Positions 32,004 through 48,823 of a stretch of DNA of 64,000 nt are shown in pieces. This DNA is from Dyadobacter fermentans DSM 18053 (GTDB lineage Bacteria > Bacteroidota > Bacteroidia > Cytophagales > Spirosomataceae). The stretch covers positions 1,922,001-1,986,000 of the forward strand of contig NC_013037.1 of NCBI RefSeq assembly GCF_000023125.1. The letters are read 5' to 3'. Position numbers and translations under genes: made by a program. The notes under the pieces are model-generated. The model was given only the letters and a program-made list of their open reading frames with translations, was not told where the DNA came from and searched no databases. The stretch's first letter is position 1. Every line of letters starts with the position of its first letter.

Positions 32004-33248
32004 TCAGGTGGATTTAAACAAAACCTGCCCGTCCTGCTGCAAATACCAAGCTGTGACGGGATTGAAATGGTAACCCATATTTCCGCCCCGCGCGGCTACC
32101 AATTGTTTCAGAAACGGCTGCACGTACCCGGTTTCATCTACCGTGCGGCTCATGATTTCGGTAGGGTTGCCGTCCCAGTTCCACAGGTAGCGGAATGCGG
32201 CGATGGCCTTGTCGAGCACGGGCTCCTGCAATGCGGCGTTGTGCCAGGTCTTGCCGGCATCGGTGCTTACTTCCACGCGCACCACTTTGCCGCGGCCGCT
32301 CCACGCAATGCCGCGGATCTCGATCCACCCTTTTTCCACTTTGGCGGGATAGGAAGGATAAGTGATGATGGAACGCGCGTCCATCGTGAAGCTGAATTGC
32401 CGGATTTTGCCGCCACCCACGGCCTCGGTGTATTTGGAAGTTTCCTCGCGGGTCATAAAAGGCGCGTCGGCGAGCTCGATGCGCCGGAGCCATTTCACAT
32501 TGGCATTACCTTCCCAGCCCGGCAGGAAAAGCCGCACAGGATAGCCCTGCTCCGGGCGAATGGCCTCGCCGTTTTGGGCATAGGCAATGATGGCATCGTC
32601 CCAACCCTTGTGGACGGGCACGCTGCGCGTCATTACCGCCGCATCGCCGCCTTCTGCCAGGAACCAGCTTGCTTTGGGGCTCACGCCTACCTCCCGGAAA
32701 AGGGTGGATAGCGCCACGCCCGTCCATTCGCTCTGGCTGGTGAGCCCGCAAATCTCCTGCGGGCGGATTTTGCCGTCGCCCGCGCCCCGGTAATTGCCCG
32801 AACATTCCAGGAATGCAATACGGGAAACCGACGGGAAGCGTTTCAGATCGGCTACGGTGAATACCATCGGCTTGTCGACCATGCCGTGAATGACCAGCTC
32901 GTGCTTTGTCGGGTCGATGGCCGGCACGCCGCCGTGATGCCGCTCATAATGCAGGTCCGAAGGCGTGAGCATGCCTTGTAAATCCTGCAATGGTGTGCGG
33001 GAAGATGTTTCGGAAAATACCTTCACGGGTTTCTCGAACGGCGAACGTGTTCCCAATGCGCCCGGCGGCACGCCCGGTACTTTCGTAGGGTCACCTGCCA
33101 GCTCGGAAGCGGTTAATGCGGCCTGGAATGCCTTGCCGCTCGCGGTTTGTACCAGCACAATGGACGCCGCGGCCGCACCGGCGAGCAGGTTACGCCTGCT
33201 CATTTTGCCGGAGGTGGTCAATGTCTTCTTATCGTCGGGTTGCTGCAT
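32004..33248 (-). CDS. SoxC-like molybdenum sulfite dehydrogenase / oxidoreductase subunit, Tat-exported
   Basis: The 414-residue protein has a Tat leader (SRRNLLAGAAAASIVLV), the sulfite-oxidase molybdopterin domain with Mo-ligand Cys149 in LECSGNYRG, and a C-terminal Mo-co dimerisation domain (from about residue 290: IEIRGIAWSGRGKVVRVEVS). This is the SoxC/SorA branch, which oxidises sulfite or sulfur bound to a carrier. It starts 2 bp after the cytochrome gene stop, as in soxCD or sorAB pairs. The frame is open upstream to 33587 in the cytochrome gene, but the Tat leader fixes the start at 33248. No other sox genes (soxYZ, soxB) are in the window, so the true substrate may be sulfite or another S- or N-oxide. 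Confidence 0.9.
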   Translation of the reverse strand: MQQPDDKKTLTTSGKMSRRNLLAGAAAASIVLVQTASGKAFQAALTASELAGDPTKVPGVPPGALGTRSPFEKPVKVFSETSSRTPLQDLQGMLTPSDLHYERHHGGVPAIDPTKHELVIHGMVDKPMVFTVADLKRFPSVSRIAFLECSGNYRGAGDGKIRPQEICGLTSQSEWTGVALSTLFREVGVSPKASWFLAEGGDAAVMTRSVPVHKGWDDAIIAYAQNGEAIRPEQGYPVRLFLPGWEGNANVKWLRRIELADAPFMTREETSKYTEAVGGGKIRQFSFTMDARSIITYPSYPAKVEKGWIEIRGIAWSGRGKVVRVEVSTDAGKTWHNAALQEPVLDKAIAAFRYLWNWDGNPTEIMSRTVDETGYVQPFLKQLVAARGGNMGYHFNPVTAWYLQQDGQVLFKST

Positions 33249-33250
33249 GG

Positions 33251-33895
33251 TTATTTGATTTCGGGGCCGTCCGTGCGGTCGTCGGGCACGAACTTGTCGC
33301 GGGCGGGCATCTTGATGGTCGGAAGGTTTTTCGCATTCAATGCGACTTTCCCGTCCCACAGGCCATTGGCGTGGAGCAGGTAGGCGGTAAGGCCGTACAC
33401 TTCCCGGTCGGTAAGCGAACCGGGCTGGTTGAAAGGCATTGCCCGCCGGATGTAGTCGAAAACCGTGGTGGCGTGGGGCCAGTAGTTGCCGATCGCCCTG
33501 ATCCGCCGTGCGCCTTTGATCGTGTCGCCCACCACGAGCCGGTCGTTGGGGCCCTCGGTGCCGGTGGCGCCGTGACATCCGGCACATTTCAATGCGTAAA
33601 TGGCCTTGCCTTCCGCGGCATTGCCTTCGCCGGTGGGCAGGCCTTGGCCATCCGGGCGGACATCGATGTCGAGCATGGCGATTTCCGCCTCCGTGGCCGG
33701 CCGCCCAAACCCGAAGCGGGCAGGCTGTGAAAGGGTATCAGCCAGCGATGCGCCCCCGCATGGCAATGCAGGGCGTTGCCACGCCGGGCGTGGCAACGAG
33801 GCACGTTGCTGGCCGACTTCAAGGCCGCTAGCCGTAAACGACAGCGTGGCGATTACCACCACGCTGCCTATAAACCTAATCGTATTTCCCTGCAT
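33251..33895 (-). CDS. Monoheme cytochrome c, electron acceptor of the SoxC-like enzyme
   Basis: The 214-residue protein has a signal peptide (IRFIGSVVVIATLSFTASG), a spacer of about 45 residues, and one cytochrome c domain with heme site CAGCH (Cys104, Cys107, His108) and a probable axial Met in RRAMPFNQPG. The C-terminal layout (GLTAYLLHANGLWDG) matches SoxD/SorB-type cytochromes paired with SoxC. Its start overlaps the end of the upstream DoxX gene by 20 bp. The spacer after the signal is encoded by a 47-bp GC-rich repeat (33755-33801) also found in the second DoxX gene, which adds Arg/Pro-rich residues (RASLPRPAWQRPALPC) unlikely to be part of the fold. Confidence 0.9.
   Translation of the reverse strand: MQGNTIRFIGSVVVIATLSFTASGLEVGQQRASLPRPAWQRPALPCGGASLADTLSQPARFGFGRPATEAEIAMLDIDVRPDGQGLPTGEGNAAEGKAIYALKCAGCHGATGTEGPNDRLVVGDTIKGARRIRAIGNYWPHATTVFDYIRRAMPFNQPGSLTDREVYGLTAYLLHANGLWDGKVALNAKNLPTIKMPARDKFVPDDRTDGPEIK
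33755..33801. repeat. Copy B of a 47-bp GC-rich dispersed repeat inside the cytochrome c gene
   Basis: Matches copy A at 36943-36989 at 35 of 47 positions without gaps. It contains the near-perfect palindrome GTTGCCACGCC-G-GGCGTGGCAAC at 33775-33797. It is read in a different codon phase from copy A, so the similarity is at the DNA level and not from a shared peptide. Confidence 0.6.
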
Positions 33896-35615
33896 TGAGC
33901 GTACTTTTAGCCAGCACGTAAGGTCTTTCAACCCGGTCCAGCACTACGTAAATCGAATCTTTTTTCTCATTGATGCCTTTCAGGATCACCCGCGAGCCGT
34001 CGGTGGTTGAGTAGTTGAGGATCATGTGGTTGCGCTTGTCGCGGCGGGGTTTGGCGGCAAACTCGCGGTCGCGGCGCGCCGACTGCCCCAGCGGATCGAT
34101 CATCTTGTTTTCATCGCCTATGTTCACCAACGCGGCTTTGCTGATCCAGTTCCGGTCGCTCGGGCCGCCCCGGCCATTGGTGCGTTCGCCGCGGTTGCGG
34201 GCGTCTGCATTGGCCTGATCGTCATTGGCTCCTTCGCCGCGGGCACGGTTTGCATCGCCCCGGGCACCGCCGCCTACCCCTCCCTGGCCCTGGCGTGCCT
34301 CGCGCTGTTGGAGCTGACCGATGCCGTCGCGCGGGCCGCCTCTCGCGTATTTATCCTGTAAATACAGGGTATGCGCCACGGTATCGGCCAGGTAATGGAA
34401 CACGCGCTGGCCGCCGCCCGTGCCGGTGAGCTCGAAGGTACGCCCGAGGTCGCGCATGGGTGCGCCGCCGCCGTTCGATAGGTCGAGCGGTGTGGGTTTG
34501 TTTACTTTGAAAGTCAGCGAGGTCCAGTTCTCGAACGTCGCCCATTGCCATCTCACGGTGTCGGTAGGCGAGTATGGAATTTCCTGGTTATTGATTTTAA
34601 ACTCGGTTACCTGATAATTGCCGCGCAGTTCTTTGATACCCGCCGTGGAAGGCTGCTTATAGGGATCATATTTGAAATTCACATATTGCAACCAGAACAA
34701 ATAGAACACAAACAGGCCGAAAACAAATATTTTAAGTCCATACCGAACATATTGCTGCCATTTTTGCGAGAATGCCGGATAGTAGCTGTTGGGCACCGTG
34801 AAGCGTTCGAGGATGAGGAGGTTCCAGAATTTGGGAATATCCTTGATGAGCAAAAACGCCGCCAAAAGCACGAAATAAGAGCTGTACACATGCACGCCGC
34901 CATCATAGGCGAAATTGACATACACAATATCCCCCAATGCACCGAGCAGCAGGATCGCACCCAGCGTGGTGGTGCCGCGGAAAAAGAGCAGAATGCCCGC
35001 CGTAAGCTCCACAACTCCCGCAAATACCTGGTACCAGGGCACAATGCCGACCGACAGCCAGTAGATTTTCTGCAAGGTAAAGTCGCCGAAGTTGGTGTTC
35101 AGCAGGCCGTATGACGGATAAGGCATTTGGGTAGGCATCAGTTTGGTATACCCGAAACCGATGATCCCGATGCCCGCACGGTAACGGACCACCACGCGAA
35201 GCCAGTAGTAGAGCAGGTTGTAGTCTTTAGGCTCACGTTTGACAACCTTCACAATCACCGTCCATATCGCACCTACCGCGATGGAAGCCAGTAAGGTGAT
35301 GATCCAGGTGGCGTAGCCTTCCAGCGTGCTTCCGAAAATGGTGCGACCGAATAGGTCGAGGCCGGAGCCGAAGCGGGCGATGTCGTACACATCGCGGTAA
35401 TGCAGGCGCGTCCAGTCGAAGGTGACGAGGTCGGTGTACCAGGTCGGGCTGTTGGGGATGGACATGGCCAGGAAAAACACGAATGCAATGCGGAAAAGGA
35501 CTTTCTGCCATTCGGGCCAGCTGCGGCCTGCGGGTTGCCCGGCGGTGTCCGCGGCGATGGCCTCTTCGGTGCCGGTGAGCGTCAGATCTTCCTCGGTTGT
35601 TCTGATCGTTGACAT
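33876..35615 (-). CDS. DoxX-family membrane protein with C-terminal domain and Gly/Arg-rich insert
   Basis: The 579-residue protein has an N-terminal soluble stretch, several membrane helices (about residues 35-315: KVLFRIAFVFFLAMSIP, YYWLRVVVRYRAGIGIIGFGYTK, VVELTAGILLFFRGTTTLGA) typical of DoxX, and a C-terminal beta-rich periplasmic domain (from about 330). It is a paralogue of the next gene upstream but carries an extra low-complexity stretch at about residues 424-490, rich in Gly, Arg, Asp and Asn. DoxX/DoxD proteins are linked to thiosulfate:quinone oxidation, so this may be the quinone-side anchor for the cytochrome and SoxC-like enzyme encoded downstream. That role is inference. Confidence 0.85.
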   Translation of the reverse strand: MSTIRTTEEDLTLTGTEEAIAADTAGQPAGRSWPEWQKVLFRIAFVFFLAMSIPNSPTWYTDLVTFDWTRLHYRDVYDIARFGSGLDLFGRTIFGSTLEGYATWIITLLASIAVGAIWTVIVKVVKREPKDYNLLYYWLRVVVRYRAGIGIIGFGYTKLMPTQMPYPSYGLLNTNFGDFTLQKIYWLSVGIVPWYQVFAGVVELTAGILLFFRGTTTLGAILLLGALGDIVYVNFAYDGGVHVYSSYFVLLAAFLLIKDIPKFWNLLILERFTVPNSYYPAFSQKWQQYVRYGLKIFVFGLFVFYLFWLQYVNFKYDPYKQPSTAGIKELRGNYQVTEFKINNQEIPYSPTDTVRWQWATFENWTSLTFKVNKPTPLDLSNGGGAPMRDLGRTFELTGTGGGQRVFHYLADTVAHTLYLQDKYARGGPRDGIGQLQQREARQGQGGVGGGARGDANRARGEGANDDQANADARNRGERTNGRGGPSDRNWISKAALVNIGDENKMIDPLGQSARRDREFAAKPRRDKRNHMILNYSTTDGSRVILKGINEKKDSIYVVLDRVERPYVLAKSTLNAGKYD

Positions 35616-35632: not shown

Positions 35633-37060
35633 TTATAGTTTGAATTCGCCACGCCGGCCAACCTTTTTCACTTCTTCGAACAGGTATTTTTTATTGGTTT
35701 TTTTCAAAACCACCTGCAACGAATCGCGGCCATTGGCGACGCCTGAAAGCCGGATCGTGGTGCTGTCGGGACGGACGTAATGCAGCACGAGCTGGTCGGC
35801 CGCATTCACTTTATTGGTCAGTGTCAGCGTTTTCGAAGCCTCGTCGAAATCGTAGCCGTAATAATGCCGACCGCCCGATCCGGCGAACTCGAAGTTGCGT
35901 TTGGCATCGTCGAAATGGATCTGCTCCACATTGGTAGAGTCGATCACGAGCGGCCGCGACGAGCGGATACTGATGGTAGCCCATTTTTCAAAAACCACAT
36001 CTTTCCAGCGCACGGGGTCCAATGCCGAATAGGCCAGCGTATCGCCATTCACGACAAACTGCTCCACATTGTAAAGCCCGGCAGCTCCGGCGAGGCCCGG
36101 TTTGGTCGGGTATTGATAGGGATTGGAATGGTAACCGGCGTATGCCTTCGAACCATAAACCACGACAAAAAACAGCACGAATGCCGCTTTCAGGGCAATG
36201 CGGCCGAATTTCAACCGCGCATGGCTGAAATCGGGTTTGAAAAGGTTCGGGGCCGTGGGTTTTTCCAATGCAAAAAGACGGTAAAGCCGGTTGGCATCGA
36301 ATGCAAACAGGAACAGCGCAAGGACGATCAGATAAAAACTGTACACATACTCGCCGCCTTCGTAGGCCAGATTGGAGAAAAACACATTGCCGGTAAATGG
36401 AATGATAATGAGCGTAGCGATGGTGGTAGTTTTCCTGTGGAGCAAAAGCAAGCCACCCACCAGTTCCACCAGCCCGAGAAACGACTCATAATCGGGCACC
36501 ACGCCGAGGCTGAGTGCAAAGATTTTCCAAGCGCTCAGATCGCCATAGGCCGTGTTGAGGTTGCTGATCGACGGCAGCGGCGCCTGCAAGGGGTAAAACT
36601 TGATAAAACCATAAGCGATAAGCCCGGCGGCAAGGCGGTAACGGACGATCACGCGCAGCCAGTAATAAAGCTGGCTGTAATCACGCCGGTCCTTGTCGCG
36701 GTTGCCCCACACCACAGCCCCGGCGACGGCGATTACCAGCACCACGAGCCAGTTGAGGAATGTGTCGTGCTCGCCGAAAAAGCGCGGCTGGTAGCGCGCC
36801 AGATCGAAAATATCCCCGTACGTAAGGTTCAGCCAGTCGATCCGGAACACGCGGCGGAAGTATTTCCAGTCCAGCGGAATGCTCTGGATCGCGAAATAGA
36901 TGAATGCCACGCGGAAAAGCAGCTTTTCGGCCGGGCTCCATGCCCGCGTGGATATGCCGGGAGTGTCCACTCCGGGCGTCGCCACACGGGATGTGGTTGC
37001 GGGGTTTGCGGGCAATCCGTTGGCGGCGCCCCTTCGCTGGTAGGTGGTGTTTTGTGCCAT
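35633..37060 (-). CDS. DoxX-family membrane protein (second paralogue)
   Basis: The 475-residue protein has the same plan as its neighbour: membrane helices (KLLFRVAFIYFAIQSIPL, YYWLRVIVRYRLAAGLIAYGF, VELVGGLLLLHRKTTT, AALKAAFVLFF-like segment) and a C-terminal soluble domain, without the Gly/Arg insert. Its N-terminal tail (SRVATPGVDTPGISTRAW) is encoded by a copy of the GC-rich repeat. It begins 11 bp after the second susD stop and ends 17 bp before the other DoxX gene. Two DoxX paralogues together suggest a heteromeric membrane unit, perhaps passing electrons to quinone. Confidence 0.85.
   Translation of the reverse strand: MAQNTTYQRRGAANGLPANPATTSRVATPGVDTPGISTRAWSPAEKLLFRVAFIYFAIQSIPLDWKYFRRVFRIDWLNLTYGDIFDLARYQPRFFGEHDTFLNWLVVLVIAVAGAVVWGNRDKDRRDYSQLYYWLRVIVRYRLAAGLIAYGFIKFYPLQAPLPSISNLNTAYGDLSAWKIFALSLGVVPDYESFLGLVELVGGLLLLHRKTTTIATLIIIPFTGNVFFSNLAYEGGEYVYSFYLIVLALFLFAFDANRLYRLFALEKPTAPNLFKPDFSHARLKFGRIALKAAFVLFFVVVYGSKAYAGYHSNPYQYPTKPGLAGAAGLYNVEQFVVNGDTLAYSALDPVRWKDVVFEKWATISIRSSRPLVIDSTNVEQIHFDDAKRNFEFAGSGGRHYYGYDFDEASKTLTLTNKVNAADQLVLHYVRPDSTTIRLSGVANGRDSLQVVLKKTNKKYLFEEVKKVGRRGEFKL
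36943..36989. repeat. Copy A of a 47-bp GC-rich dispersed repeat inside the DoxX gene
   Basis: The sequence CCCGCGTGGATATGCCGGGA and the following 27 bases match copy B (33755-33801) in register at 35 of 47 positions. Here it encodes ATPGVDTPGIST, in another codon phase from copy B. Both copies lie in non-conserved N-terminal linkers. Confidence 0.6.
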
Positions 37061-37071
37061 GAGTTCAGGAA

Positions 37072-38406
37072 TTAGTAGCCGGGATTTTGTTTCAATGCCT
37101 TGTCGATCAGCAGCTGTTCGGATGGGATCGGAAGCAGCAGACGGTTGTTATCCGTGACGTTCAGCACCGCCGCCGCGCGGCCGGTACGCACGAGGTCGAA
37201 CCAGCGGTGCGGTTCCAGCGCGAACTCGATGCGGCGCTCGTTTTCGATGGCGAGCAGCAGCTGGTCGGCGGTGGATGCGGTGCTTTTCGCGATGCCTGCC
37301 CGCTCGCGGATCGCGTTCAGGTCGGCGAGTGCTCCCGCGAGCTCACCGGTATGCGCGCGGGCTTCGGCGCGGATGAGGTACAGCTCGGCAATGCGGATCA
37401 CGAATGTGGGATCGGTGGCGGGGCTTCGGTAGTACATATTGCCGTACCAGCGGCCCTGGTTGTCCTTCGCTACAAGCGTGCTCCGGTTACCGCCTACCGC
37501 AGGGTCGTTCACGAGTGCCACGAATGCGTCGTTAGGCGCCCATTGCCGTGTACCGCCTTTTTCCTGCGGCTGCCACTGGCCCCGATGACCGTTCGTTTCG
37601 TTAACACTGTAAAATATCTCGAAAACAGACTCCGTAGTGCCCCGCGCGTCGTTGGCGAAGAATGCGTTGTATGGCGTCACCAGCTTGTAATTGGCCGCAT
37701 CGGCTATTACGCTGGATGCATATTCCGCCGCCTTCGCGTAGTCTTTCTGATACAAATAATACCGCGCTTTCAATGCCCAAACCGTCTTTTGCGTGGCACG
37801 AAAACGATCGGTGGTGGCGGGTAGCAGCGACTCGGCGGCATTGAGGTCGGCGAGCACCTGGGCGTACACCTGCTCCTGCGTGGCGCGCTCGATGCCGCGG
37901 TTATCCGACGGCGTCGCGGTGGGTTTGGTGATGATCGGTACGCCGCCCCATATGCGTGCCAGGTCGAAATAGGCCAATGCGCGGAGGAAATAGGCCTCGC
38001 CGATGAGCTTGTTTTTCAATGCAGCCGTCAGCAGCGGGTCCTGCACGTTGGGGACCTTCTCGATGACGTGGTTAATGCGGTTGAGCGAGCTGTAAATGCC
38101 GGTCCAAACGGACGATACGGTTGAATTTTCGGCATTAACGCGGTGATTGATAAACTCCTGGATCTGCGATTGCGAGCCGGTCCATTGAATGTTATCGCCC
38201 GAAAGGTAGCCGATCGACTGGAAGCTCACGCTGTAATAGCTCCGGAACGAGTCGTAAACGCCGTTCACCGCAGTTTCCGCAGATGCTTTGTCGATGATCG
38301 TCTGGTCGTCGGAAATGGACGAACGGGGCTGCACGTCGAGGAACTTGTCGCAGGAACCGAGCCCGATCAGCAGGGAAAGCGGCAGGATGTATTTGAATGC
38401 TTTCAT
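37072..38406 (-). CDS. SusD/RagB-like lipoprotein (second pair of the operon)
   Basis: The 444-residue lipoprotein has signal KYILPLSLLIGLGSC and the family start DKFLDVQPRSS. Helical TPR-like segments (YFLRALAYFDLARIWGGVPI) and the C-terminal RRIEFALEPHRWFDLVRTG and KQNPGY complete it. It pairs with the SusC encoded 11 bp upstream. A start at 38418 is open, but 38406 gives the regular signal. Short SusD proteins of this size often handle peptides or small molecules as well as glycans, so no sugar substrate should be assumed. Confidence 0.93.
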   Translation of the reverse strand: MKAFKYILPLSLLIGLGSCDKFLDVQPRSSISDDQTIIDKASAETAVNGVYDSFRSYYSVSFQSIGYLSGDNIQWTGSQSQIQEFINHRVNAENSTVSSVWTGIYSSLNRINHVIEKVPNVQDPLLTAALKNKLIGEAYFLRALAYFDLARIWGGVPIITKPTATPSDNRGIERATQEQVYAQVLADLNAAESLLPATTDRFRATQKTVWALKARYYLYQKDYAKAAEYASSVIADAANYKLVTPYNAFFANDARGTTESVFEIFYSVNETNGHRGQWQPQEKGGTRQWAPNDAFVALVNDPAVGGNRSTLVAKDNQGRWYGNMYYRSPATDPTFVIRIAELYLIRAEARAHTGELAGALADLNAIRERAGIAKSTASTADQLLLAIENERRIEFALEPHRWFDLVRTGRAAAVLNVTDNNRLLLPIPSEQLLIDKALKQNPGY

Positions 38407-38417
38407 GTTGGTAATCA

Positions 38418-41400
38418 TTAAAATGTCAGGTTAACACCCAGCTGGAAGCTGCGCGGCTGCGGCGGCGTACCGAGGTCGATGCCTTGCTCGTTTTGCCCGC
38501 TCGATGAGCTCGATTCGGGGTCGAGGCCGGTGTATTTGGTGATGGTGAACAGGTTGCTGCCCGTGGCGTAAATGCGCAATGAGCTGATGTGTCGCACGGG
38601 AATGGTGTAGCCGACGGTGAGATTCCGCAACCGCACAAACGAGCCGTCTTCGAGCCAGCGGCTGCCGCCGTCGCGATAGTTGTTCACATTCACGCCGTCG
38701 GGGCGGGGCACGTCGGTGATGTCGCCCGGCTGCTGCCAGCGGTCGTTGTTGCTCGCGAAAATCACGCGCGCCGCGTCGCGGGCACCGCCGCCTTCGCCGA
38801 AGAACTTGTTGTGGTTGTACACCTTGTTACCATAGCTAAATGCGAGGAAAGCATTGATATCAAAGCCTTTGTAGGTGATCGAATTGGTGAGTCCGCCGTA
38901 AAATTTCGGCCAGATACTGCCGTTGATCTGCCGGTCGGCGACGGTAATCTTGCCGTCTTTGTTCACGTCTTCATACACGGTGTTACCCGTCTGCGGATCT
39001 ACATACAGCTGCTTGTATACCCAGAAAGAATAGAGCGGATGGCCTTGTTGAAGCAAAATCAGGCTTCGGCTGCCGTATTCGAGCGGGTTTTCCAGCTTTT
39101 CGATTTTATTGACATTCCGGGCCACATTGAATGTCGTGATCCAGGAGAATGTGTTGTTCTGAAAATTCACCGAGCGGATCGCGAGCTCGAAACCTTTGTT
39201 GCTGATCTCGGCCGTATTGCTGCGGAAGCTGCCAAAACCGGTGGTGGCGGGCAATGTGAGTGAAAGCAGGCCATTGCTCGTGTATTTGCGGTAAACATTG
39301 AACTCAATGCCCAGCCTATCGCCGAAGAATGCGATGTCGGCGCCTGCATTGAGCTGGTTGGTACGCTCCCATTGCAGATCGGGGTTGGCGAGCTGCTGAG
39401 GAGCGATGCCGGGGTTGCCCTGGTACGACGCGCCGCTGCTCCAAAGGCCCCGCGCGGCAAAGCTGCCGAGGCCGTTCTGGTTACCCGTTACACCGTAGCT
39501 CGCGCGGATTTTGAGGTCGCTGATCGTGGATGAATTTCTGAGAAAATCCTCCTGCTTCACACGCCACGCGCCGCCTACCGACGGGAAATAGCCCCATTTG
39601 CGATCCGCCCCGAAGCTCGACGAGCCATCCGCACGAATGCTGAAATCGAGCAAGTATTTGCCGCCATAGTTGTAATCAATGCGGGAGAAGAACGAGGCCA
39701 GATTTTTCTTCGACCAGCTGCTCGAACCGGTCGTAGTGGCCGCCGAAGTGATCAGTTTAAAAGAATTACTGGCAAAACCGCGCCCCGTAGCCGCTGTACC
39801 GGTGTTCAGATCGCTTTGAATGGTGTTACCCAGCAGCACACCGAACGAATGTTTTGAACCGATCTTCTGACGGTAGGAAAGCGTCTGCTCATTGAGCCAG
39901 GTCGTGGCCTGGCCGTTGTTTGCGGATGCAAAGCCATTCGGGCTGCCGGTGATGAGGTAGGTGTTCCAATATTCATTTTCATCGTAGTTATTGAAATCCA
40001 GCCCCCAGCTTGTGCGGAATTTGAGGTTAGGCAAAATATCGGCCTCGGCGTAAAGGTTACCGATGTAGCGCAGGCTCACTGATTTCACATCATAATTATC
40101 CAGCAGCAGGCTCACGTTATCGAAACCCGCGCGGCCTACCAGCTCGCCATTTTCGTTCGTGGGCGAAAGGTAAGTGGGCGTGTGCAATGCCGCCTGCAAA
40201 AGTCCGCCCGCGGGGCCGTCGCCGGCGCGTGCCTGGTTACGGAACGTGCGCGCGAAGCTGTTGCTCACACCCACCTGGATTTTGTCCGAAATCTTCTGAT
40301 CCAGGTTTACTTTAAAACTCGCGCGATTGAAGGTAATCGGCTTCAAAATCGACTCCTGCCCCGTGTAGCCGCCGCCAATGTAGTACTTGGTGGAAGCCGT
40401 CCCGCCCGACACCGACAGGTCATAGTTCTGCAAAGGCGCGGTCTGGAAAACCTCGCCGAGGCGGTCGTAGGTCTTTTGCTCTTCGGGCAGGCCGCGGCCG
40501 CCTTCGGAAACGGGACGGAACGGGCGGTTGGCCTCGGTGCGGTTCAGCGACGGCGTGTCTTTGCCGGTGTTGATCCACCATTCGTTCACCAGCGCCGCGT
40601 GCTCGGGGCCCGTGGTGAGGTCCCACAACTTAGCCGCTTTCGCCCAGCCGTAGGAGGCATTGAGGCTCACCTTGGCTTTCTGGTTAAACTTGCCTCTCTT
40701 GGTGGTGATGATAATGACCCCGTTTGCACCGCGCGAGCCGTACAATGCGGTCGCTTCGGCGTCTTTGAGCACTTCGAGGCTCTCGATGTCGTTGGGATTA
40801 ATGTCGGCGATGGGCGACGTGGCCTTGCCACCGGTATTGGTGGTTTGCATACTGTTGCTGTTCATAAACACGCCGTCGATCACATACAGCGGGTCGTTAT
40901 CGCCGTTGATCGATGTGGCGCCCCGGACGCGCACGGTTACCGCTTCGCCGGGCACGCCGGTGTTGGAGGTAATCTGCACGCCGGGGACTTTTCCTTGAAG
41001 CTGGGCATCGAAACTGCCCACCGGGATACTTTTCACGTCGGTAGGGTCCACTTTGGTAATGGAACCGATCACATTTTTACGTTCCTGCGTGCCATAGCCG
41101 ACCACGATCACCTCGTTCAGCTGCCGCTGGTCCACTTCCAGCTTCACGGTGAGGCTGCTTTTGTTCCCCGGCCGCACCTGCTGGCTCACATAGCCGATAA
41201 ATGAGACGACCAGCTCCTGCCCTTCGGCCACATCGAGGTGAAAATTCCCGTCGGCGTCCGTTACCGTGCCCTGGTTTGTGCCTTTGATCTGGATGTTCAC
41301 ACCCGGCAGCGCGGCGCCGTCTTTGTCGGTCACCTTGCCCGTCAGCTCGGCGGCCGGACCGGCAAAAGCCGTCGAAACGACCAGCCACGTCAGCACTGCC

Positions 41401-41462: not shown

Positions 41463-41498
41463 CAATCAGATTAAAATTGGGGGTGTATGGAAATGCGG

Positions 41499-42452
41499 TT
41501 ATTTGCCTTTATTTCCCGAGATAGCTTCCGGATCTTGCTGGCGGCGCGGCGCCTGGATCACTTTGCGCTCTTTGAGATCGTACTTCTGGCCTTCGTGCAG
41601 AAAGAAGAATGGCCCATTGCTCGCCGTAGGCACTTCGCGGCTGCCCTGCACGTGTTTTGCGCCGCTGCCGATGATGGTGTTGTAGTCATAAATGGAGGCA
41701 TATGAGCGGCCCACCACTTCCAGCGTGTCTTTTTGCACCACAATGGACGTAGCCTCATCCAGCCCGATGCCGATCAACTCCGGCGCGTTTTTGACAAAAT
41801 CCACGAGATCGAACTGCCGGTTGCGGCGGAACAAATGCTGGTCGATCACCGAGTTTTTGAGAAAACCCAGCCCCTGCGTATGATCGCCCACGAGAATGTG
41901 CGGCCCTTTGGTATCGCCCCGCCACAAAAACGACCCCTGAATGCTGGCCCCCGCCGAAGTGCCGGAAATCACGCCGCCGCGGTCGAGCAGTTCCTGGAAT
42001 GCCTGGTGGGTTAATGTGTTGAGGTAAGAATCGGCAATGCGCCACTGGCGGCCGCCGACGATGTACACGCCCGTAGCCGAGCGGATGGGCGCGACGAACT
42101 TTTCGCTATTGGCTTCTTTGAGGTCATTTGTATGAAGTAATGTTACATTGGCAATGCCGGTTTCGCGCTTCACGAGCTCGACGGATTTTTTATCATATGC
42201 CGCAGAATCGCCTCCGGCCGCGGTAATGACCACGATTTTGGCCTTGTCCTTCCCGCCTGCGAGCTGCACGAAGCGTTGCCAGATTTCAGGCGTAGCTCCT
42301 CCCCCGCCGATGATGATCAGCGAGCCATTTTCGGGACCGTGGCGGGTGATCGCATTCTTTTTGACGGTTACCGGCGTTTGCGCGTGCAAGGTGTCGAGCG
42401 AGGCCAGTGCAATGCCCGCTAACAATGTGCTGAATAGGAATCTCGATTTCAT
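41499..42452 (-). CDS. Secreted cyanophycinase-like peptidase (family S51)
   Basis: The 317-residue protein has a signal peptide (FLFSTLLAGIALASLDTLHA) and the S51 fold: SLIIIGGGGATPEI, VVITAAGGDS, VYIVGGRQWRI, and the nucleophile elbow GTSAGAS with Ser166. The GLDEATSIVV segment is also typical of the family. Cyanophycinases cut beta-Asp-Arg bonds in cyanophycin; relatives cut aspartyl dipeptides. It is the only hydrolase in the operon, placed between two Sus pairs (19 bp and 33 bp gaps), so it probably processes the imported compound. The start at 42452 follows the signal peptide; the frame is open further upstream. Confidence 0.88.
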   Translation of the reverse strand: MKSRFLFSTLLAGIALASLDTLHAQTPVTVKKNAITRHGPENGSLIIIGGGGATPEIWQRFVQLAGGKDKAKIVVITAAGGDSAAYDKKSVELVKRETGIANVTLLHTNDLKEANSEKFVAPIRSATGVYIVGGRQWRIADSYLNTLTHQAFQELLDRGGVISGTSAGASIQGSFLWRGDTKGPHILVGDHTQGLGFLKNSVIDQHLFRRNRQFDLVDFVKNAPELIGIGLDEATSIVVQKDTLEVVGRSYASIYDYNTIIGSGAKHVQGSREVPTASNGPFFFLHEGQKYDLKERKVIQAPRRQQDPEAISGNKGK

Positions 42453-42471: not shown

Positions 42472-43815
42472 TTAATAGCCGGGATTTTGGACGAGGTCGC
42501 CGTCAGTCTGGATGGCTGTGAGCGGGATGGGCAGGACGTTGAATTGCTGGTTCTTCCGGTTGGCATTAACAGCCCCGAAAATGCTCGCCGAACGGCCCGT
42601 GCGCACTACGTCCACGAAGCGGTGGCCTTCGAAAGGCAGTTCCAGCCTGCGTTCTTCTAGGATCGCAAGGTTGAATGCCTCCTTGCCCGACGCGGCCGTG
42701 AGCGGCGATGCCGGCACGTCCGAACGGCTGCGGATCGCATTCAGGTCGGCCAGGGCGCCGGTGAAATCGGGCGCGGCTTTGTTGGCACGCGCTTCGGCGC
42801 GGATGAGGTATTGCTCGGCAATGCGCAGGATGAATACCGAGCTGGAACCGTCGGGCTTGCCGTATTGGATGAGGTCCCAGGAGCCTTCGGCGGTTTGTTT
42901 GAGCAAACTTTTGCGCGCGCCGCCCCTGGCCGGATCGAGCAGCTGGCTCACGAACTCCCGCGCAGGGATGTAGTCATGCCGACCGCCATCGGCCGGGGAA
43001 AGCCAGTTGGTATAAAATGAGTTCCGGTCGGAGGTGCTGTAAACGAGTTCGAAAATGGATTCTTCCGTCGTTTTGCCCGTAAAGAATGCGGAGTAAGGTT
43101 TCACCAGCTTGAACCCTGCCTGGGCAATCACTTTCGACGCGTTCGCCTCCGCCTGTTCCCAGTTTTGCAAATAGGTGAAATACCTCGCTTTCAATGCATA
43201 TACCGAAAAACGCGTGGCGCGGGTGCGGTTCACCGTTTCTTTCAAAAGCTGCTCGGCCTGGTCGAGGTCCGCGCCGATTTGCGCGTAGGTTTCGGCTGCG
43301 GTGCTTCGTTTGGTCCCTTTATGCGTATCCGGGCCGGTGGCGGGCGCGAGTACGAGCTGCACGCCGCCGTAGGTTTTCACCAGGTCCAGGTAACCCAATG
43401 CGCGCAGGAAATAGGCCTCGCCCAGCACCTGGTTCCGCTCTTCCTGGGTAAAAAAGCCATCCTGCACACCCGGTACTAGGGCGATCACAAAGTTGGCCTG
43501 GTTGATCATCTTGTAAATCGCCGAGAAGCCGCCGCCTGCATTGTTGGGCGTCAGGTCGGGCACCAGGTTGTTCTGGTTATTGTAGTTCACTACGTTGTCG
43601 GAAGCGAGGTCCACGCCGATAATGTTGGATGTTGCGTAGCCTTGCAATGCGTCGTACACGCCTACGAGGGCCGTATTGGCCGATTTTTCGTCTACGATCA
43701 CCGCTTCGTCGGAGATGTTCTGCTCCGGCTCGGTGTTCAGCAGGTCGGAGCAGGACGAGAGCCATAATGCGGCCAGTATCAGTGTTATATTCAGTTTTTT
43801 CATCATCAATTCCAT
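42472..43815 (-). CDS. SusD/RagB-like lipoprotein (first pair of the operon)
   Basis: The 447-residue lipoprotein has signal LNITLILAALWLSSC followed by SDLLNTEPEQNIS, helical repeats (YFLRALGYLDLVKTYGGVQL) and the C-terminal RRLELPFEGHRFVDVVRTG and QNPGY. The ATG at 43815 overlaps the stop codon of the upstream susC (TAATG), which supports translational coupling; ATGs at 43806 and 43803 are alternatives. It partners the STN-containing SusC. It is similar in length and plan to the second SusD of the operon, suggesting duplication of a pair. Confidence 0.93.
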   Translation of the reverse strand: MELMMKKLNITLILAALWLSSCSDLLNTEPEQNISDEAVIVDEKSANTALVGVYDALQGYATSNIIGVDLASDNVVNYNNQNNLVPDLTPNNAGGGFSAIYKMINQANFVIALVPGVQDGFFTQEERNQVLGEAYFLRALGYLDLVKTYGGVQLVLAPATGPDTHKGTKRSTAAETYAQIGADLDQAEQLLKETVNRTRATRFSVYALKARYFTYLQNWEQAEANASKVIAQAGFKLVKPYSAFFTGKTTEESIFELVYSTSDRNSFYTNWLSPADGGRHDYIPAREFVSQLLDPARGGARKSLLKQTAEGSWDLIQYGKPDGSSSVFILRIAEQYLIRAEARANKAAPDFTGALADLNAIRSRSDVPASPLTAASGKEAFNLAILEERRLELPFEGHRFVDVVRTGRSASIFGAVNANRKNQQFNVLPIPLTAIQTDGDLVQNPGY

Positions 43816-46800
43816 TAAAAACTCAGATTCACACCCAGTACCACCGATTTCGGCTGCGGCGGCGTGCCGAAATCCAGCCCTTGCACGAGCCCGTTGCGGC
43901 TGTCGGCCGCCACGTTCACCTCGGGGTCGGGACCCGAATAGTTGGTCAGCGTCCACAGGTTGGTGGCCGTCAGGTACAGCCGCACGCCCGAGGTACGAAT
44001 GGCCGACGTGATGCTTTTGGGCAGGTTATAGCTGATTGTAATGTCGCGCAGGCGCAGGTAGGAAGCGTCTTCTAGGTAGCGGCTGTTGCCCGTGCGGAAG
44101 TAGTTGAGGCTGCCGTCGGGGTTGGTGAGGTTGGTCGGGCGGGGCAGCACGCCGGTGTCGCCGGGTTTCTGCCAGTAGTTGAGCGAGCTTTTCTGGATGG
44201 AGCGCGTCACGCCGCGGGTACCGGCGGTTTCCAGAAAATAAGCCGTGTAGTTGTAGGCCGAGTTGCCGTATTTGTAATAAAAATTCAGGTTCAGATCGAG
44301 GCCTTTGAACGACAATGTGTTACGAAATGCCCCCTCGAACTTGGGCCAGATATTGCCGACGATGTGCTGGTCGTCCACGGTGATCCTGCCGTCCCTGTTA
44401 ATATCCTCGTAAATCGCATTGCCATTCTCGGCATTCAGCCCGAGCTCTTTATAAGCGTACACCGAGTACAACGGCTGGCCTTCCACCACGCGGAACATGT
44501 CGTAGCCGGCCGTAATGGGCGTCAGCAGCTTCTGCACGCGGTTCACGTTGCGCGATACGGTGAGCGTCGTTTTCCATTCCAGGTCCTGGTTCCGCACATT
44601 CACCGAGCTTAGCAACAGCTCCACGCCCCGGTTGCTGATCTCGCCCACATTGCGCACCACCGACGAAAATCCGGTATTCGGCGCCACGGGCTGGTCGAGG
44701 AGCAGGTCGTAGGTGAATTTATCGTAATAATTGAATTCAAAATTGAGCCGCTGTTTCAGCAATGCCCCCGACAGCCCGAAGTTGTACTGGCGCGTGGTTT
44801 CCCATTTCAGATCAGGATTGGCGAGCTGGCTGGGCGCGATGCCGGGCTGGTCGCCGTAGTTGGTACCGCCCGCCCACAGGCCGCGGGAAGCGAAATCGTC
44901 TATATCCTGGTTACCCGTTAATCCTAAACTGGCCTTGAAGCGCAGGTCGGTGAGGGTGTTATTTTCAGAAAAAAATGCCTCTTTGGAAATGTTCCAGCCC
45001 AAGCCCACCGATGGAAAATAGCCCCAGCGGTGATCGGCCCCGAAGCGCGAAGAAGCATCAGCGCGGATGTTGCCGTCAATGCTGTACCGGTTGTCATAAC
45101 TATAATTAAAACCTGTAAAAAACGAGAGCAATCCGTACGACGAGCCTGTGGATGAGGCTGTTTGCACGGCGGCCGACGCAATGCGCTTGAACTGGTTGCT
45201 TGGGAAGCCGGTGCCGGTCAGTGTGGCGCGTTCGGTAGTGGTTTTTTGAATGGTGTTACCTACGAAAACTGAGAATTCGCTTTTGGCAGAGGACAAATTG
45301 TAATTCAAAAGCTGCTCGGCAATGAGCGATTGCTTGATCGTCGTGACGTCGTTTGCCTCGCCCGCGGGCTGGCCGTACACGAGGTTGGTGTTGTAGTAGG
45401 CCTTCTCGTGATAGTTGTTGTAATCATTGCTCCACGAGGATTTGAAGGACAAGTTCGGCAGGATATTCCAGAGCGCGTACACATTGTTGATGCTCCGCAG
45501 GCTCACCGAATGCGTGTCCGAGTTTTCTAGAATGGCGAGGTGGCTGTCGAAGACCGTCGGTTTGGCATAGCTGCCGTCTTCATTGTAGAATGGGTAAAAA
45601 GTAGGCGTGTGCAATGCCGCCTGGAACAGTCCCGCCGGGCCGTCCCCTACCCGCACGAGCCGGCGCGGCACGCTGGAAAGGGTGTTGCTCGTCCCGATTT
45701 TAAGGTTGGGCAAAATCGAATGGTCGATATTGAAACGGAAGGAATACCGCTTGAAGTCCTGCGTTTTGAGCGTCGATTGCTGGTTTTGGAACTCGCCGCC
45801 GAGGTAGAAGTTGGTGCGCGAGTCGCCGCCGGACACGGATAAGGTGTATTTGCTCAATGCTGCCGTGCGGAAAATGTCGCTCACCCGGTCGTAGGTGCCC
45901 TGCTCTTCGGGACTGCCGAATGCCGGAAAACCTGCTACGGCCTCCGATACGGGCCGGAACGGGCGGGTAGCAAACGACTTCCCATCGTTTACATGCACCA
46001 GGTTCACCAGCTGGGCATGCTCGGGACCGGTTACCAGCTGCCACAGGTTGGTGGCTTTTGCAAAACCCTGTTCCACATTGATACTCACCTTCGTACGCGA
46101 GTTGCGCGCGCCGCGCTTGGTCGTGATCAGGATCACGCCATTGGCACCGCGTGCCCCGTAGAGCGCCGTCGCATTGGCATCTTTCAGCACCGATACCGAT
46201 TCGATATCGTCCGGGTTCAGGTCGGAAAGCGGGTTGGGCGTCTGCCCGCCCATGCCGCGCGAAAGGCCTTGTAAGTTTTCATTGTTGATAAAAACGCCAT
46301 CCACCACATACAATGGATCATTCCCTGCCTTAATAGACGTGGCGCCGCGCAGCCGCACGAGCACCGATGTGCCCGGCACGCCCGAATTGCTCGAAATCTG
46401 CAAACCGGGCACCGTACCCTGCAATTTCTCGATCACGCTGTTGTAGGAAACCTGCGAAAAGTCCTTGGAATCGACGGTTGTGACGGCGCCGGTTTGGGCG
46501 CTGCGTTTGGTTTGGGTGTAACCCGTCACGATCACCTCGCTGAGCTGGCTTTCGTCGGGTTTGAGGGAAATATCGATGCTGGTAGCGCTGCTAATGGCTT
46601 GTTCGGCAGTGACATAGCCAATGTAGGAGAAGATGAGCACGTCGCTGCCGCCCGCCGAAATCGTGAATGCGCCATTGGCGTCGGTGAGCGTGCCCTTATT
46701 CGTTCCTTTCACGCGGATGGTCACGCCCGGGAGACCGTCGCCCTTCTCGTCTTTCACCACGCCGTTGATCGCCTGGTCGGACGCCTCGTCCGAATCGGCG

Positions 46801-47177
46801 GCTTCACCGGTCTGCGCAGGCGCTTTGCGGATGATCACTTTTTCTTTCTGCTGTTCGTAGTCGAGGCCGCGCTGGCGCAACAGGCTGTTCAGCACCTGTT
46901 CAAGCGATTCATTGCGGGCCTCAAAAGCGAGGTTAGTATATGGATTTACTAGTCTATCCTGGTAAATAAAAACGAACCCGCTTTTTGTTTCGATTTGTGT
47001 TAAAATAGCCTTTAAAGACTGTTTCTCAGCCCTGATCGAAATTTTCACATCCCGGATCGTCTTCTCTCTTTCCGCGTGGAGCGGGTGGAAAAGGGAAGCC
47101 GCGAGGACGAGAATCACCCAGAGCCTGCTTAGGTAATGCTGGCCAATGCCATTGTTTTGTCGGATAAATACCGTCAT
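43815..47177 (-). CDS. SusC-like TonB-dependent transducer with STN signalling domain
   Basis: The 1120-residue protein has a signal peptide (LSRLWVILVLAASLFHPLHA) and an N-terminal STN (secretin/TonB) domain of about residues 40-115 (LKAILTQIETKSGFVFIYQ). A carboxypeptidase-D-like domain, TonB-box region QLSEVIVTGYTQTKRSAQTG, plug (NDPLYVVDGVF, ALYGARGANGVILITTKRG) and barrel ending VLGVNLSF follow. The STN domain is the part that contacts a FecR-type anti-sigma factor, and fecR lies only 12 bp upstream. So this receptor both imports and reports its substrate, switching on the ECF sigma factor for the whole operon. Confidence 0.95.
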   Translation of the reverse strand: MTVFIRQNNGIGQHYLSRLWVILVLAASLFHPLHAEREKTIRDVKISIRAEKQSLKAILTQIETKSGFVFIYQDRLVNPYTNLAFEARNESLEQVLNSLLRQRGLDYEQQKEKVIIRKAPAQTGEAADSDEASDQAINGVVKDEKGDGLPGVTIRVKGTNKGTLTDANGAFTISAGGSDVLIFSYIGYVTAEQAISSATSIDISLKPDESQLSEVIVTGYTQTKRSAQTGAVTTVDSKDFSQVSYNSVIEKLQGTVPGLQISSNSGVPGTSVLVRLRGATSIKAGNDPLYVVDGVFINNENLQGLSRGMGGQTPNPLSDLNPDDIESVSVLKDANATALYGARGANGVILITTKRGARNSRTKVSINVEQGFAKATNLWQLVTGPEHAQLVNLVHVNDGKSFATRPFRPVSEAVAGFPAFGSPEEQGTYDRVSDIFRTAALSKYTLSVSGGDSRTNFYLGGEFQNQQSTLKTQDFKRYSFRFNIDHSILPNLKIGTSNTLSSVPRRLVRVGDGPAGLFQAALHTPTFYPFYNEDGSYAKPTVFDSHLAILENSDTHSVSLRSINNVYALWNILPNLSFKSSWSNDYNNYHEKAYYNTNLVYGQPAGEANDVTTIKQSLIAEQLLNYNLSSAKSEFSVFVGNTIQKTTTERATLTGTGFPSNQFKRIASAAVQTASSTGSSYGLLSFFTGFNYSYDNRYSIDGNIRADASSRFGADHRWGYFPSVGLGWNISKEAFFSENNTLTDLRFKASLGLTGNQDIDDFASRGLWAGGTNYGDQPGIAPSQLANPDLKWETTRQYNFGLSGALLKQRLNFEFNYYDKFTYDLLLDQPVAPNTGFSSVVRNVGEISNRGVELLLSSVNVRNQDLEWKTTLTVSRNVNRVQKLLTPITAGYDMFRVVEGQPLYSVYAYKELGLNAENGNAIYEDINRDGRITVDDQHIVGNIWPKFEGAFRNTLSFKGLDLNLNFYYKYGNSAYNYTAYFLETAGTRGVTRSIQKSSLNYWQKPGDTGVLPRPTNLTNPDGSLNYFRTGNSRYLEDASYLRLRDITISYNLPKSITSAIRTSGVRLYLTATNLWTLTNYSGPDPEVNVAADSRNGLVQGLDFGTPPQPKSVVLGVNLSF

Positions 47178-47189: not shown

Positions 47190-48179
47190 TTAATGCTCGT
47201 TCATTGTGATCAGCACCTGGCCCGTTGCATGGCGGTACCTGAAATTGCCCGCCATGGCCAGCGTCCCGAGTATGTCGTCCAAAGTTTCCTCCGCTCTGAA
47301 ACGCGCCGTAAGCCTCTGGATGCCAAGTGTTTCATTTTCAACCCGCACCGGCACATTGAATTTCTTTTCCAGCAGCAATGCGATCGTTCTCAGCTCTTCA
47401 TTGTTGAAATCCATCGCACCGCGCAGCCACCCGGCCAGGGAGCGCGCATTCACGCGTTCTTTTTGCGCCCGTCCGCTCCGGTTGTCGACCACCAGCTGCT
47501 CGTCGGGAAGCAGAAACGCCGTTTGCGTGTCGGAATAGCCGCTGGCGTTGCGCACGCCTACTTTGCCGCTGGCCACGGTTACGCGTACGTCGGCCAGGCT
47601 TCGGTAAGCACGCACGCAAAATACGGTGCCGAGCACCTGCGTCCGCGTGCGGCCGGCGTCGACGATAAACGGATGCGAAGCATTGTGTTTCACATCGAAA
47701 TACGCCTCGCCGTCGGTAAGCGTCACTTCCCGCACTTTGGCTCCGAATACTTCGGGATACCGCACGGAACTGCCGCCGTTGAGCGTTACCAGCGAGCTGT
47801 CGGGCAGCCGGTAGGTCCGCACTTCGCCGGGTAATGTACTGGCGGTGAGCATGCGAGCCGCTGCACCGTTTTGATTCTGAGACAACCCGCCGCCCAGCCA
47901 GAAAAAGCCCAGGCAAAGCAATGCCGCCACTGCGCCGGCTGCATAAAATACCCGGCCCCAATGGACGGGCCGCAGCCGGGCTTCAAATGTGTGTTCCGCA
48001 TGGACCGCCCCCATGATATTCGCCCACGATTCGGCGCGGGCCGCTTCGGGGTCGCCGGGCAAATCGGGCTGCTGCCGGGCCGCCTGCGCATACCATTCCG
48101 CGATCAGCGCTTTTTCGGCGTCGGTACATCGCCCGAGCCGGTATCTCCCCAGCAAATCCCTCACCTCCCGATGGTCCAT
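47190..48179 (-). CDS. FecR-family anti-sigma factor
   Basis: The 329-residue protein has an N-terminal cytoplasmic anti-sigma region (LLGRYRLGRCTDAEKALIAEW), one membrane helix at about residues 83-105 (VFYAAGAVAALLCLGFFWLGG), a periplasmic FecR domain (VRTYRLPDSSLVTLNGGSSV, VLGTVFCVRAY) and a C-terminal DUF4974 domain (GIQRLTARFRAEETLDDILG). It holds or releases the sigma factor encoded 68 bp upstream according to the state of the STN-containing SusC encoded 12 bp downstream. Confidence 0.94.
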   Translation of the reverse strand: MDHREVRDLLGRYRLGRCTDAEKALIAEWYAQAARQQPDLPGDPEAARAESWANIMGAVHAEHTFEARLRPVHWGRVFYAAGAVAALLCLGFFWLGGGLSQNQNGAAARMLTASTLPGEVRTYRLPDSSLVTLNGGSSVRYPEVFGAKVREVTLTDGEAYFDVKHNASHPFIVDAGRTRTQVLGTVFCVRAYRSLADVRVTVASGKVGVRNASGYSDTQTAFLLPDEQLVVDNRSGRAQKERVNARSLAGWLRGAMDFNNEELRTIALLLEKKFNVPVRVENETLGIQRLTARFRAEETLDDILGTLAMAGNFRYRHATGQVLITMNEH

Positions 48180-48247
48180 TCGATTCTATTTTTGAATTGC
48201 AATTCAGAAGTATGACAGGCGAGTAAGCATTTGGTAGTAGAATTTTT

Positions 48248-48823
48248 TTAAAAAAATAGCACTACCAACTGGGATTTCCATTGTACCAACCTGTCCCTCA
48301 GTATCTTAATTGCATTACTAATCTGCTTTTTTACAGTGTGATCGGACAATGCAAGTTGATCGGCGATCTCGGCATAGGACATTTCCCCCTTTCTGCGCAG
48401 CTCGAAAACTTCCTTCATTTTGCGCGGCAGGTTTTCTATTTCCGCTTCGAGAAGCGAGAACAGAATTTCTTCATCCGGGTCGCCGGCCGGAGCCGGATTT
48501 TCACGCAGAAACGCCGCCAGGCCATCGATATGATGCTGGTAAACCGTCTTTTGCTCAATGAGGTTCAGCACGCGGTTGCGCACCGATGTGAACAGATAAC
48601 CCGCCAAACCGGTATGCAGCCGGACGCCCGCCCCTTTGGCCCACAAGCTGATAAACACCTCCTGCACCACATCCTGCGCATCTTCCGCATTACCGAGCAT
48701 TTTGAAGGCATGCGCGTAGAGCCGCCTGAAATAACGCCGGTGTATTTCTTCAAATGCCGCCACGGAGCCTTCCTGGAACATTTCCAGCAACTGCCGATCC
48801 GATAAATCTCCTAACTCATGCAC
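48248..48823 (-). CDS. ECF RNA polymerase sigma factor (SusC/FecR-linked)
   Basis: The 191-residue protein has sigma region 2 (FEEIHRRYFRRLYAHAFKML, EDAQDVVQEVFISLW) and region 4 (LPRKMKEVFELRRKGEMSYA followed by a helix-turn-helix IADQLALSDHTVKKQISNA). It directs RNA polymerase to the operon that follows, under FecR control. It is the first gene of the ten-gene minus-strand run. The start at 48823 is the only one that keeps region 2 complete. Confidence 0.94.
   Translation of the reverse strand: MHELGDLSDRQLLEMFQEGSVAAFEEIHRRYFRRLYAHAFKMLGNAEDAQDVVQEVFISLWAKGAGVRLHTGLAGYLFTSVRNRVLNLIEQKTVYQHHIDGLAAFLRENPAPAGDPDEEILFSLLEAEIENLPRKMKEVFELRRKGEMSYAEIADQLALSDHTVKKQISNAIKILRDRLVQWKSQLVVLFF

Follow-up and report, generated by a model that had tools for sequence, protein, structure and literature searches.

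Genes of the locus

We analysed a 64,000-nucleotide stretch of Dyadobacter fermentans DSM 18053 (NC_013037.1, positions 1,922,001 to 1,986,000; hereafter the window), which is part of a 6.97 Mb genome in a single contig. On its minus strand, from 48823 down to 32004, eleven genes stand in a row. They encode an extracytoplasmic function (ECF) sigma factor with a FecR regulator, two SusCD importer pairs, an S51 peptidase, two homologous membrane proteins that we named DX1 and DX2, and a SoxC-type enzyme with its cytochrome. An earlier reading made from the DNA letters alone (the sequence-only reading) had counted ten genes, all on the minus strand. The strand and all coordinates first given are right, while the count is eleven, to which that reading's own list also sums. 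The genes, in the order of transcription, are as follows.

48248..48823, minus: ECF sigma factor of the Bacteroidota type, starting with GTG (Sigma70_r2 and r4_2 above cut-off; TIGR02985 just below, 125.5 against 126.4 bits)
47190..48179, minus: FecR anti-sigma regulator (PF04773 and PF16344 over cut-off)
43815..47177, minus: SusC1, TonB-dependent importer that carries an STN signalling domain (Plug, CarbopepD_reg_2; STN 32.0 against 28.4 bits)
42472..43815, minus: SusD1, surface lipoprotein, start taken at the first ATG (SusD_RagB and SusD-like_3 above cut-off; signal-like start followed by Cys)
41499..42452, minus: cyanophycinase-like S51 peptidase; signal-like start, GTSAGA motif (PF03575 66.1 bits; TIGR02069)
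38418..41465, minus: SusC2, TonB-dependent importer lacking STN; belongs to the conserved core (TIGR04056 866.5 bits; precedes DX1 in relatives)
37072..38418, minus: SusD2, surface lipoprotein; belongs to the conserved core (PF14322, PF07980)
35633..37060, minus: DX1, membrane domain remotely similar to DoxX, followed by a C-terminal lipocalin-like barrel (structure model and profile comparison)
33876..35615, minus: DX2, homologous to DX1 and alike in architecture (hhalign to DX1 E 2e-58; AlphaFold2 pLDDT 78)
33251..33895, minus: mono-haem cytochrome c, homologous to the chain that partners SoxC in 2xts (2xts_B E 7e-32; one CXXCH)
32004..33248, minus: SoxC-type molybdopterin sulfite dehydrogenase with a twin-arginine-like start and Arg at Mo-Cys+5 (TIGR04555 484 bits; 2xts_A)

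The intergenic spacing ranges from -20 to 68 bp. In the front part it is 68 bp (ECF-FecR), 12 bp (FecR-SusC1), -7 bp with the listed open reading frame (ORF) or -1 bp from the first ATG (SusC1-SusD1), 16 bp (SusD1-S51) and 33 bp (S51-SusC2). In the core it is -1 bp (SusC2-SusD2), 11 bp (SusD2-DX1), 17 bp (DX1-DX2), -20 bp (DX2-cytochrome) and 2 bp (cytochrome-SoxC). The eleven genes may be co-transcribed. A Bacteroidota-type promoter pattern has no match in the window (0.87 expected by chance), and sigma-70-like sites (9 against 9.5 expected) and terminator-like sites (29 against 24.3 expected) occur there near chance level.

Both importer pairs of the window carry the TonB plug/SusC signature and a SusD lipoprotein. 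SusCD importers are best known for the uptake of glycans and of some peptides, and the STN domain is the usual partner of FecR. SusC1 with its STN domain is thus the expected partner of the window's FecR and ECF factor, and the three constitute a substrate-sensing set. The S51 peptidase barely exceeds the cut-off of the cyanophycinase model TIGR02069 (128.3 against 126.6 bits). It also matches the cyanophycinases 7uqv (E 6e-28) and 3en0 (E 1e-21), with its GTSAGA motif aligned to both. The S51 family includes members with substrates other than cyanophycin. The sequence-only reading had listed cyanophycin among the compounds to test. We rejected this candidate, since family membership, with its marginal score, is the only pointer to it. 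The accessible part of a report on a Dyadobacter strain with cyanophycinase, cyanophycin synthase and isoaspartyl peptidase genes does not mention the locus (PMC11573002).

A conserved core and a variable front

A scan of an 84,980-species genome collection with six short DX1 patterns, which distant copies may escape, returned 68 loci from Dyadobacter, Siphonobacter, Pedobacter, Mucilaginibacter, Chitinophaga, Olivibacter, Sphingobacterium and others. DX2 directly follows DX1 in all 68, and in 65 a SusD gene precedes DX1 by at most two genes. A SoxC gene next to a cytochrome gene occurs in 49 loci, in three arrangements: downstream on the same strand (37), upstream on the same strand (9) or upstream and divergent (3). 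That the SoxC/cytochrome pair is kept across these arrangements points to function, rather than to inherited gene order alone.

The same association is found in 222 genomes of the family, in which SoxC was counted at its curated cut-off and DX1 at 500 bits, a line set after the list was seen. Both genes occur in 67 genomes, SoxC alone in 3, DX1 alone in 7 and neither in 145; weaker matches to DX1 extend to 142 of the 222 genomes at E 0.001. One genome counted as having DX1 only (G471) carries two SoxC pieces beside it. The co-occurrence has a p value of 1e-44 with kinship ignored, and the count within the window's genus is the better guide: among its 48 genomes, 20 have both genes, 28 have neither and none is discordant. 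SoxC and DX1 lie within 3 kb of each other in 51 of the 67 genomes with both. SoxC exceeds its cut-off in only one of 295 genomes in a class-wide sample, the window's own, indicating that the trait is patchy.

We hand-picked 20 family loci with room upstream from these 51 genomes; many of the stretches are the same contigs as loci among the 68. The core SusC2-SusD2-DX1-DX2-cytochrome-SoxC is found in all 20, where SoxC and DX1 are present by selection and the SusCD part is not. No SusD2 was called in L132, which leaves 19 loci with it, and in L143 two ORFs make up SusC2. The front ECF-FecR-SusC1-SusD1-S51, whose count is likewise free of the selection, is found in five loci (L130, L131, L132, L133 and L143). 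All five come from the window's genus, which supplies 14 of the 20 loci. L134/L007 has a SusCD-sulfatase set at the position of the front. On the other hand, S51 directly precedes DX1 in 15 of the 68 loci, in other genera. The order SusC1-SusD1-S51-SusC2-SusD2-DX1-DX2 recurs in Pedobacter (L021), and a Sphingobacterium (L046) has SusC1-SusD1-S51-DX1-DX2 followed by SusC2-SusD2-DX1-DX2-cytochrome. We read the locus as a composite, in which an interchangeable uptake-and-hydrolysis front sits on a constant core.

A quick tree of DX1, built with long-branch warnings, places Dyadobacter sequences nearest to the window. S51 presence changes at least 8 times on this tree, and so does SoxC presence, for which truncated loci without SoxC were left out. 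The two show no association either way (median p 0.69). The sequence-only reading had proposed a search for conserved gene order, which thus reveals SusCD, the DoxX-like pair and cytochrome/SoxC as a conserved unit across the 68 loci, the 20 family loci and the 222 genomes. It had also considered a split between a half from the sigma factor to SusD2 and a half from DoxX to SoxC. The locus is indeed composite, but the break falls between S51 and SusC2. Upstream of the SusC2 core, MbnP and MauG-like genes are found in two loci (L014:1866-4651 and L047:3156-5206).

SoxC, the DX pair and their neighbours

The window's SoxC scores 484 bits against TIGR04555 (sulfite_DH_soxC; cut-off 420), and its closest solved structure is 2xts_A (E 9e-89, residues 83-409). 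SoxC and the cytochrome are homologous to chains A and B of 2xts, which we take to be Paracoccus SoxCD. We collected 50 Bacteroidota SoxC sequences, comprising the window's, 48 of the 49 locus sequences (L014 fell to a length filter) and one from a Spirosoma plasmid. A twin-arginine-like start is present in 46 of them, the window's included, and the cytochrome has a signal-like start; both proteins are therefore expected in the periplasm.

Several features set this pair apart from SoxCD of the Sox pathway, in addition to the SusCD-DoxX context. SoxY was found in none of the 222 family genomes, including the window's own, in a search that did not extend to SoxZ, SoxB or SoxAX. It did detect SoxY in three of three records with annotated sox clusters, and in neither pTAV3, the first record tried, nor 14 control genomes. 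The window's cytochrome and all 51 locus cytochromes have one CXXCH. Where soxC lies outside a Sox cluster, the neighbouring cytochrome likewise has one haem motif in 10 of 10 cases (the window's included), whereas the two SoxD proteins from Sox clusters have two. Finally, Arg at Mo-Cys+5 is present in all 50 Bacteroidota SoxC, in alignment with SorA and with one chain of a sulfite oxidase, but in none of three Sox-cluster SoxC and none of eight orphan SoxC from other phyla. In sulfite oxidases, this Arg binds sulfite. Membership of the Sox pathway was rejected on the SoxY result and the single haem. On these sequence features, the pair is classed as an orphan SoxCD outside the Sox pathway, and sulfite appears a likelier substrate of SoxC than sulfane sulfur.

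Two kinds of known pairs resemble it. Plasmids of Proteobacteria and Allomeiothermus carry orphan soxC genes followed by a mono-haem cytochrome c, with no soxXYZAB in the annotated stretch. Unlike the window's, these SoxC lack Arg at Mo-Cys+5, and no SusCD or DoxX is annotated in the stretches examined. SorT/SorU has been described as a molybdenum sulfite enzyme with a mono-haem cytochrome partner (eLife e09066). SorT/SorU and SorA/SorB share this composition with the window pair, and the Arg at Mo-Cys+5 aligns to SorA, but the window's SoxC scores only 132 and 123 bits against the SorA and SorT models (cut-offs 600 and 570) and is best matched by the SoxC model. In another locus (L127), an orphan soxC adjoins TauD/TfdA and sulfurtransferase genes, showing that soxC occurs near organosulfur-type genes outside the Sox pathway. 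The window's genome contains a second match of the sulfite oxidase family (G000:C1:3975987-3976955; 199 bits to the soxC model).

DX1 and DX2 are less easily placed. In its structure model, DX1 has about seven long helices in the membrane domain and a C-terminal lipocalin-like barrel, which is predicted to be periplasmic. Neither window protein has a match to any Pfam or NCBIfam family at E 0.01, and neither reaches the gathering cut-off of DoxX (PF07681). We compared profiles built from length-filtered members (the window protein with 42 of 68 DX1 and 40 of 66 DX2 proteins) with a DoxX profile built from 17 of 24 loci. The DX1 membrane domain matches DoxX at E 5e-5 (probability 67%), while five control profiles, three of them from membrane proteins, give E 0.18 or worse (probability below 1%). 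The match of DX2 is weaker (E 7e-4, probability 27%; best control 0.08), and 13 of the 41 DX2 members weakly match MauE (best 0.0075). The DX1 and DX2 models have no Foldseek match in the PDB at E <=0.001. The first DX2 rows are chains of vitamin K gamma-carboxylase (GGCX) at E 0.1 or worse, which we did not take as evidence.

DoxX is a four-helix protein and DoxD is a subunit of thiosulfate:quinone oxidoreductase. DX1 and DX2 are much longer, with extra helices and the lipocalin-like barrel, and fall below the Pfam threshold, although RefSeq names one Hymenobacter DX1 a 'DoxX family protein'. By sequence profiles, DX1 and DX2 are probably remote members of the DoxX superfamily. The two 'DoxX proteins' of the sequence-only reading thus stand as remote kin, a label that rests on profile comparison, and not as DoxX by Pfam or NCBIfam.

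The DX family has other settings as well, as indicated by a chromate transporter neighbourhood. In L077 (3966-16599), DX1-DX2 with SusCD and FecR/ECF is followed by a ChrB C-terminal/AraC gene and, one gene later, a chromate transporter. In L076 (6642-15476), a lone DX-like protein (36%) lies among MauG-type di-haem, DsbD_N and redoxin-like proteins and a TonB receptor, and DX-like genes in L075, L078 and L079 are surrounded by ORFs sized as in L076. On a Hymenobacter plasmid (L117:9821-16858), genes for carbonic anhydrase and a bacillithiol biosynthesis deacetylase (bshB1) lie downstream of SusCD-DX1-DX2, separated from it by a gap.

In relatives, the gene company of DX1-DX2 is rich in sulfur functions, which strengthens the claim of sulfur chemistry made by the sequence-only reading. 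The gene after DX2 in the 68 loci encodes a cytochrome (34), a flavin adenine dinucleotide (FAD) oxidoreductase (16), a CstB-like metallo-beta-lactamase (MBL)-rhodanese (7) or another protein (11). The CstB-like gene occurs in one further locus at a greater distance from DX2, making eight. The CstB-like protein of L058 matches 3tp9 (E 4e-59) and 3r2u (E 2e-48), the latter presumably CstB. FAD oxidoreductase is present in 50 of the 68 loci. We rejected it as a pathway marker, because 46 of the 48 genus genomes have a strong match, with or without DX1. In a Dyadobacter region (L041, L072 and L073), a rhodanese gene follows one DX1-DX2 pair (L072), and a second pair (L041) is preceded by MetNIQ and followed by Rrf2. 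DX2 is followed by a rhodanese gene in L074, by molybdopterin and molybdate-uptake genes in L052 and by an amino-acid permease gene in L082.

A YeiH-like putative sulfate exporter is encoded in 23 of the 68 loci. YeiH belongs to the PSE family. The representative that we scored is below the cut-off of TIGR00698 (98.7 against 232.6 bits) and over that of PF03601 (179.6 against 24.5). For a proteobacterium, it has been proposed that SoxYZ or sulfite dehydrogenases oxidise the sulfite left by organosulfur catabolism and that a PSE-family protein exports the sulfate (PMC5373536). This scheme fits the gene company seen in relatives.

A Spirosoma plasmid (L116 = L087) without DX genes has the order SusCD-amidohydrolase-luciferase-like monooxygenase-amino-acid permease-cytochrome-SoxC. 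ORFs of like size and order, with families not tested, are present in L088, and a set of the same kind plus a DX2-like gene is present in L081. Inside the latter locus, fatty-acid hydroxylase and CpeT-family genes (L081:2727-5920) suggest amide-linked sulfonolipids as a possible substrate.

Two neighbours of the locus lie in the window itself. At 30749-31935 on the minus strand, a Kelch-repeat ORF and a TIG-domain ORF overlap in different frames; the two appear to be a single lipoprotein gene disrupted by a frame change or a sequencing error. At 27793-29961 on the plus strand is a gene for a pyrroloquinoline quinone (PQQ)-type dehydrogenase with a cytochrome c domain.

A candidate route for organic sulfur

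Gene content, conserved linkage, homology, the active-site pattern of SoxC and the search that did not find SoxY were observed directly. The account that we propose adds to them a substrate class, a role for DX1/DX2, sulfite as the SoxC substrate, cell compartments, the use of quinone and co-transcription. The locus would serve organosulfur utilisation, an account to which we give about an even chance of being right. A sulfur-containing compound, probably amino-acid or peptide-like, would cross the outer membrane by way of SusC1/D1 and SusC2/D2, and SusC1 would report its presence through FecR to the ECF factor. The S51 peptidase might trim the compound in the periplasm. DX1/DX2, a DoxX-like inner-membrane pair with the barrels directed to the periplasm, may help release or oxidise the sulfur, probably with quinone. 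Sulfite might arise there, or through YeiH-like export in relatives, and would be oxidised to sulfate by SoxC in the periplasm, with the electrons passing to the mono-haem cytochrome c. The sequence-only reading had combined uptake with the oxidation of released sulfite or thiosulfate, the electrons going to quinone. Its sulfur chemistry agrees with our results, but a sulfite enzyme fits better than a sulfane role in view of SoxY, the haem count and the Arg.

Several observations weigh against this account. SoxC is missing from the available stretch of 19 of the 68 loci, some of which are cut by contig ends, and no gene of the window is known to make sulfite. The orphan SoxC of L127, beside TauD-like genes that may release sulfite, lacks the Arg, which is thus not required for a sulfite role. 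DoxX is weak by Pfam, with 3 of 43 DX1 members (best 0.012) and none of 41 DX2 members at E <=0.1. Moreover, none of the eight CstB-like loci has SoxC, as compared with 49 of the 60 others (Fisher p 1e-5), and a possible meaning of this is that sulfane sulfur is the substrate of both enzymes. On the DX1 tree, these eight loci group in one clade, joined partly by long branches. CstB-like as a swap for SoxC was rejected, as a single clade amounts to one event at most.

Other explanations assign the genes differently. In one, SoxC/cytochrome detoxifies sulfite or persulfide under redox stress, and SusCD is only a sensor or a co-regulated importer. Sulfite oxidation, the YeiH-like exporter and the rhodanese/CstB-like partners are plausible parts of such a system, and an Rrf2 regulator is present in L041. 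We judge it unlikely, though not negligible, because nutrient uptake explains more simply the SusD genes near DX1 in 65 of 68 loci and the two SusCD pairs of the window, and because the ECF/FecR/STN-SusC set senses substrates. Energy might instead be gained from thiosulfate, sulfur or polysulfide, with DX1/DX2 as a DoxD-like thiosulfate:quinone oxidoreductase, SoxC/cytochrome as a sulfane dehydrogenase, and SusCD importing hydrophobic or polymeric sulfur. The remote DoxX kinship, the SoxD-like cytochrome and the rhodanese and CstB-like partners are in keeping with this inorganic route. It is unlikely in view of the SoxY search without a hit in 222 genomes (not extended to SoxZ, SoxB and SoxAX) and the sulfite-like active site of SoxC, and the neighbouring S51, amino-acid permease, amidohydrolase and methionine-importer genes point to organic substrates.

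It is quite improbable that two unrelated transcription units, a cyanophycin/peptide locus (ECF-S51) and a sulfur locus (SusC2-SoxC), merely adjoin in the window. Fifteen of the 20 family loci lack the front upstream of the core, and in L134/L007 the SusCD-sulfatase set replaces it, as two units would predict, but the S51 genes directly before DX1, with at least 8 changes on the tree, and the recurrent orders in Pedobacter and Sphingobacterium speak for an association. Finally, DX1/DX2 and SoxC might repair or modify a periplasmic protein or lipid in the manner of MsrP, rather than serve nutrient catabolism. SoxC and MsrP belong to one superfamily, and the top Foldseek rows of DX2 are the GGCX chains, weak as they are. 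The MsrP model yields 16 bits against 484 for soxC, and the importers are conserved. We rejected MsrP-type repair, and consider this explanation very improbable.

Returning to organosulfur utilisation, the locus resembles polysaccharide utilisation loci with ECF/FecR and SusCD in its regulation and uptake parts. It differs from them in that its eleven genes include no carbohydrate enzyme, but a peptidase and sulfur oxidation genes instead. The sequence-only reading knew of no described system with this combination, and we likewise found none in the openly accessible literature, with most subscription papers outside the search. Tentatively, and with the chances leaning against it, the locus might be a sulfur counterpart of the polysaccharide utilisation locus, in which swappable SusCD-hydrolase fronts (S51, sulfatase or amidohydrolase) feed a constant core. 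DX1/DX2 would then be a new quinone-linked membrane enzyme, removing the sulfur of organosulfur amino acids or peptides after their import, and the last step, oxidation to sulfate, would fall to an orphan mono-haem SoxCD with a sulfite-type Arg.

If the conserved SusCD set is tied to sulfur oxidation, Bacteroidota such as Dyadobacter, Pedobacter and Chitinophaga would have a route for organic sulfur. It would also provide a first context for the unannotated membrane pair DX1/DX2, adjacent in all 68 loci. Furthermore, an orphan, probably sulfite-oxidising group of SoxC would be set apart from the SoxC of the Sox pathway, both of which are named soxC in the records examined.

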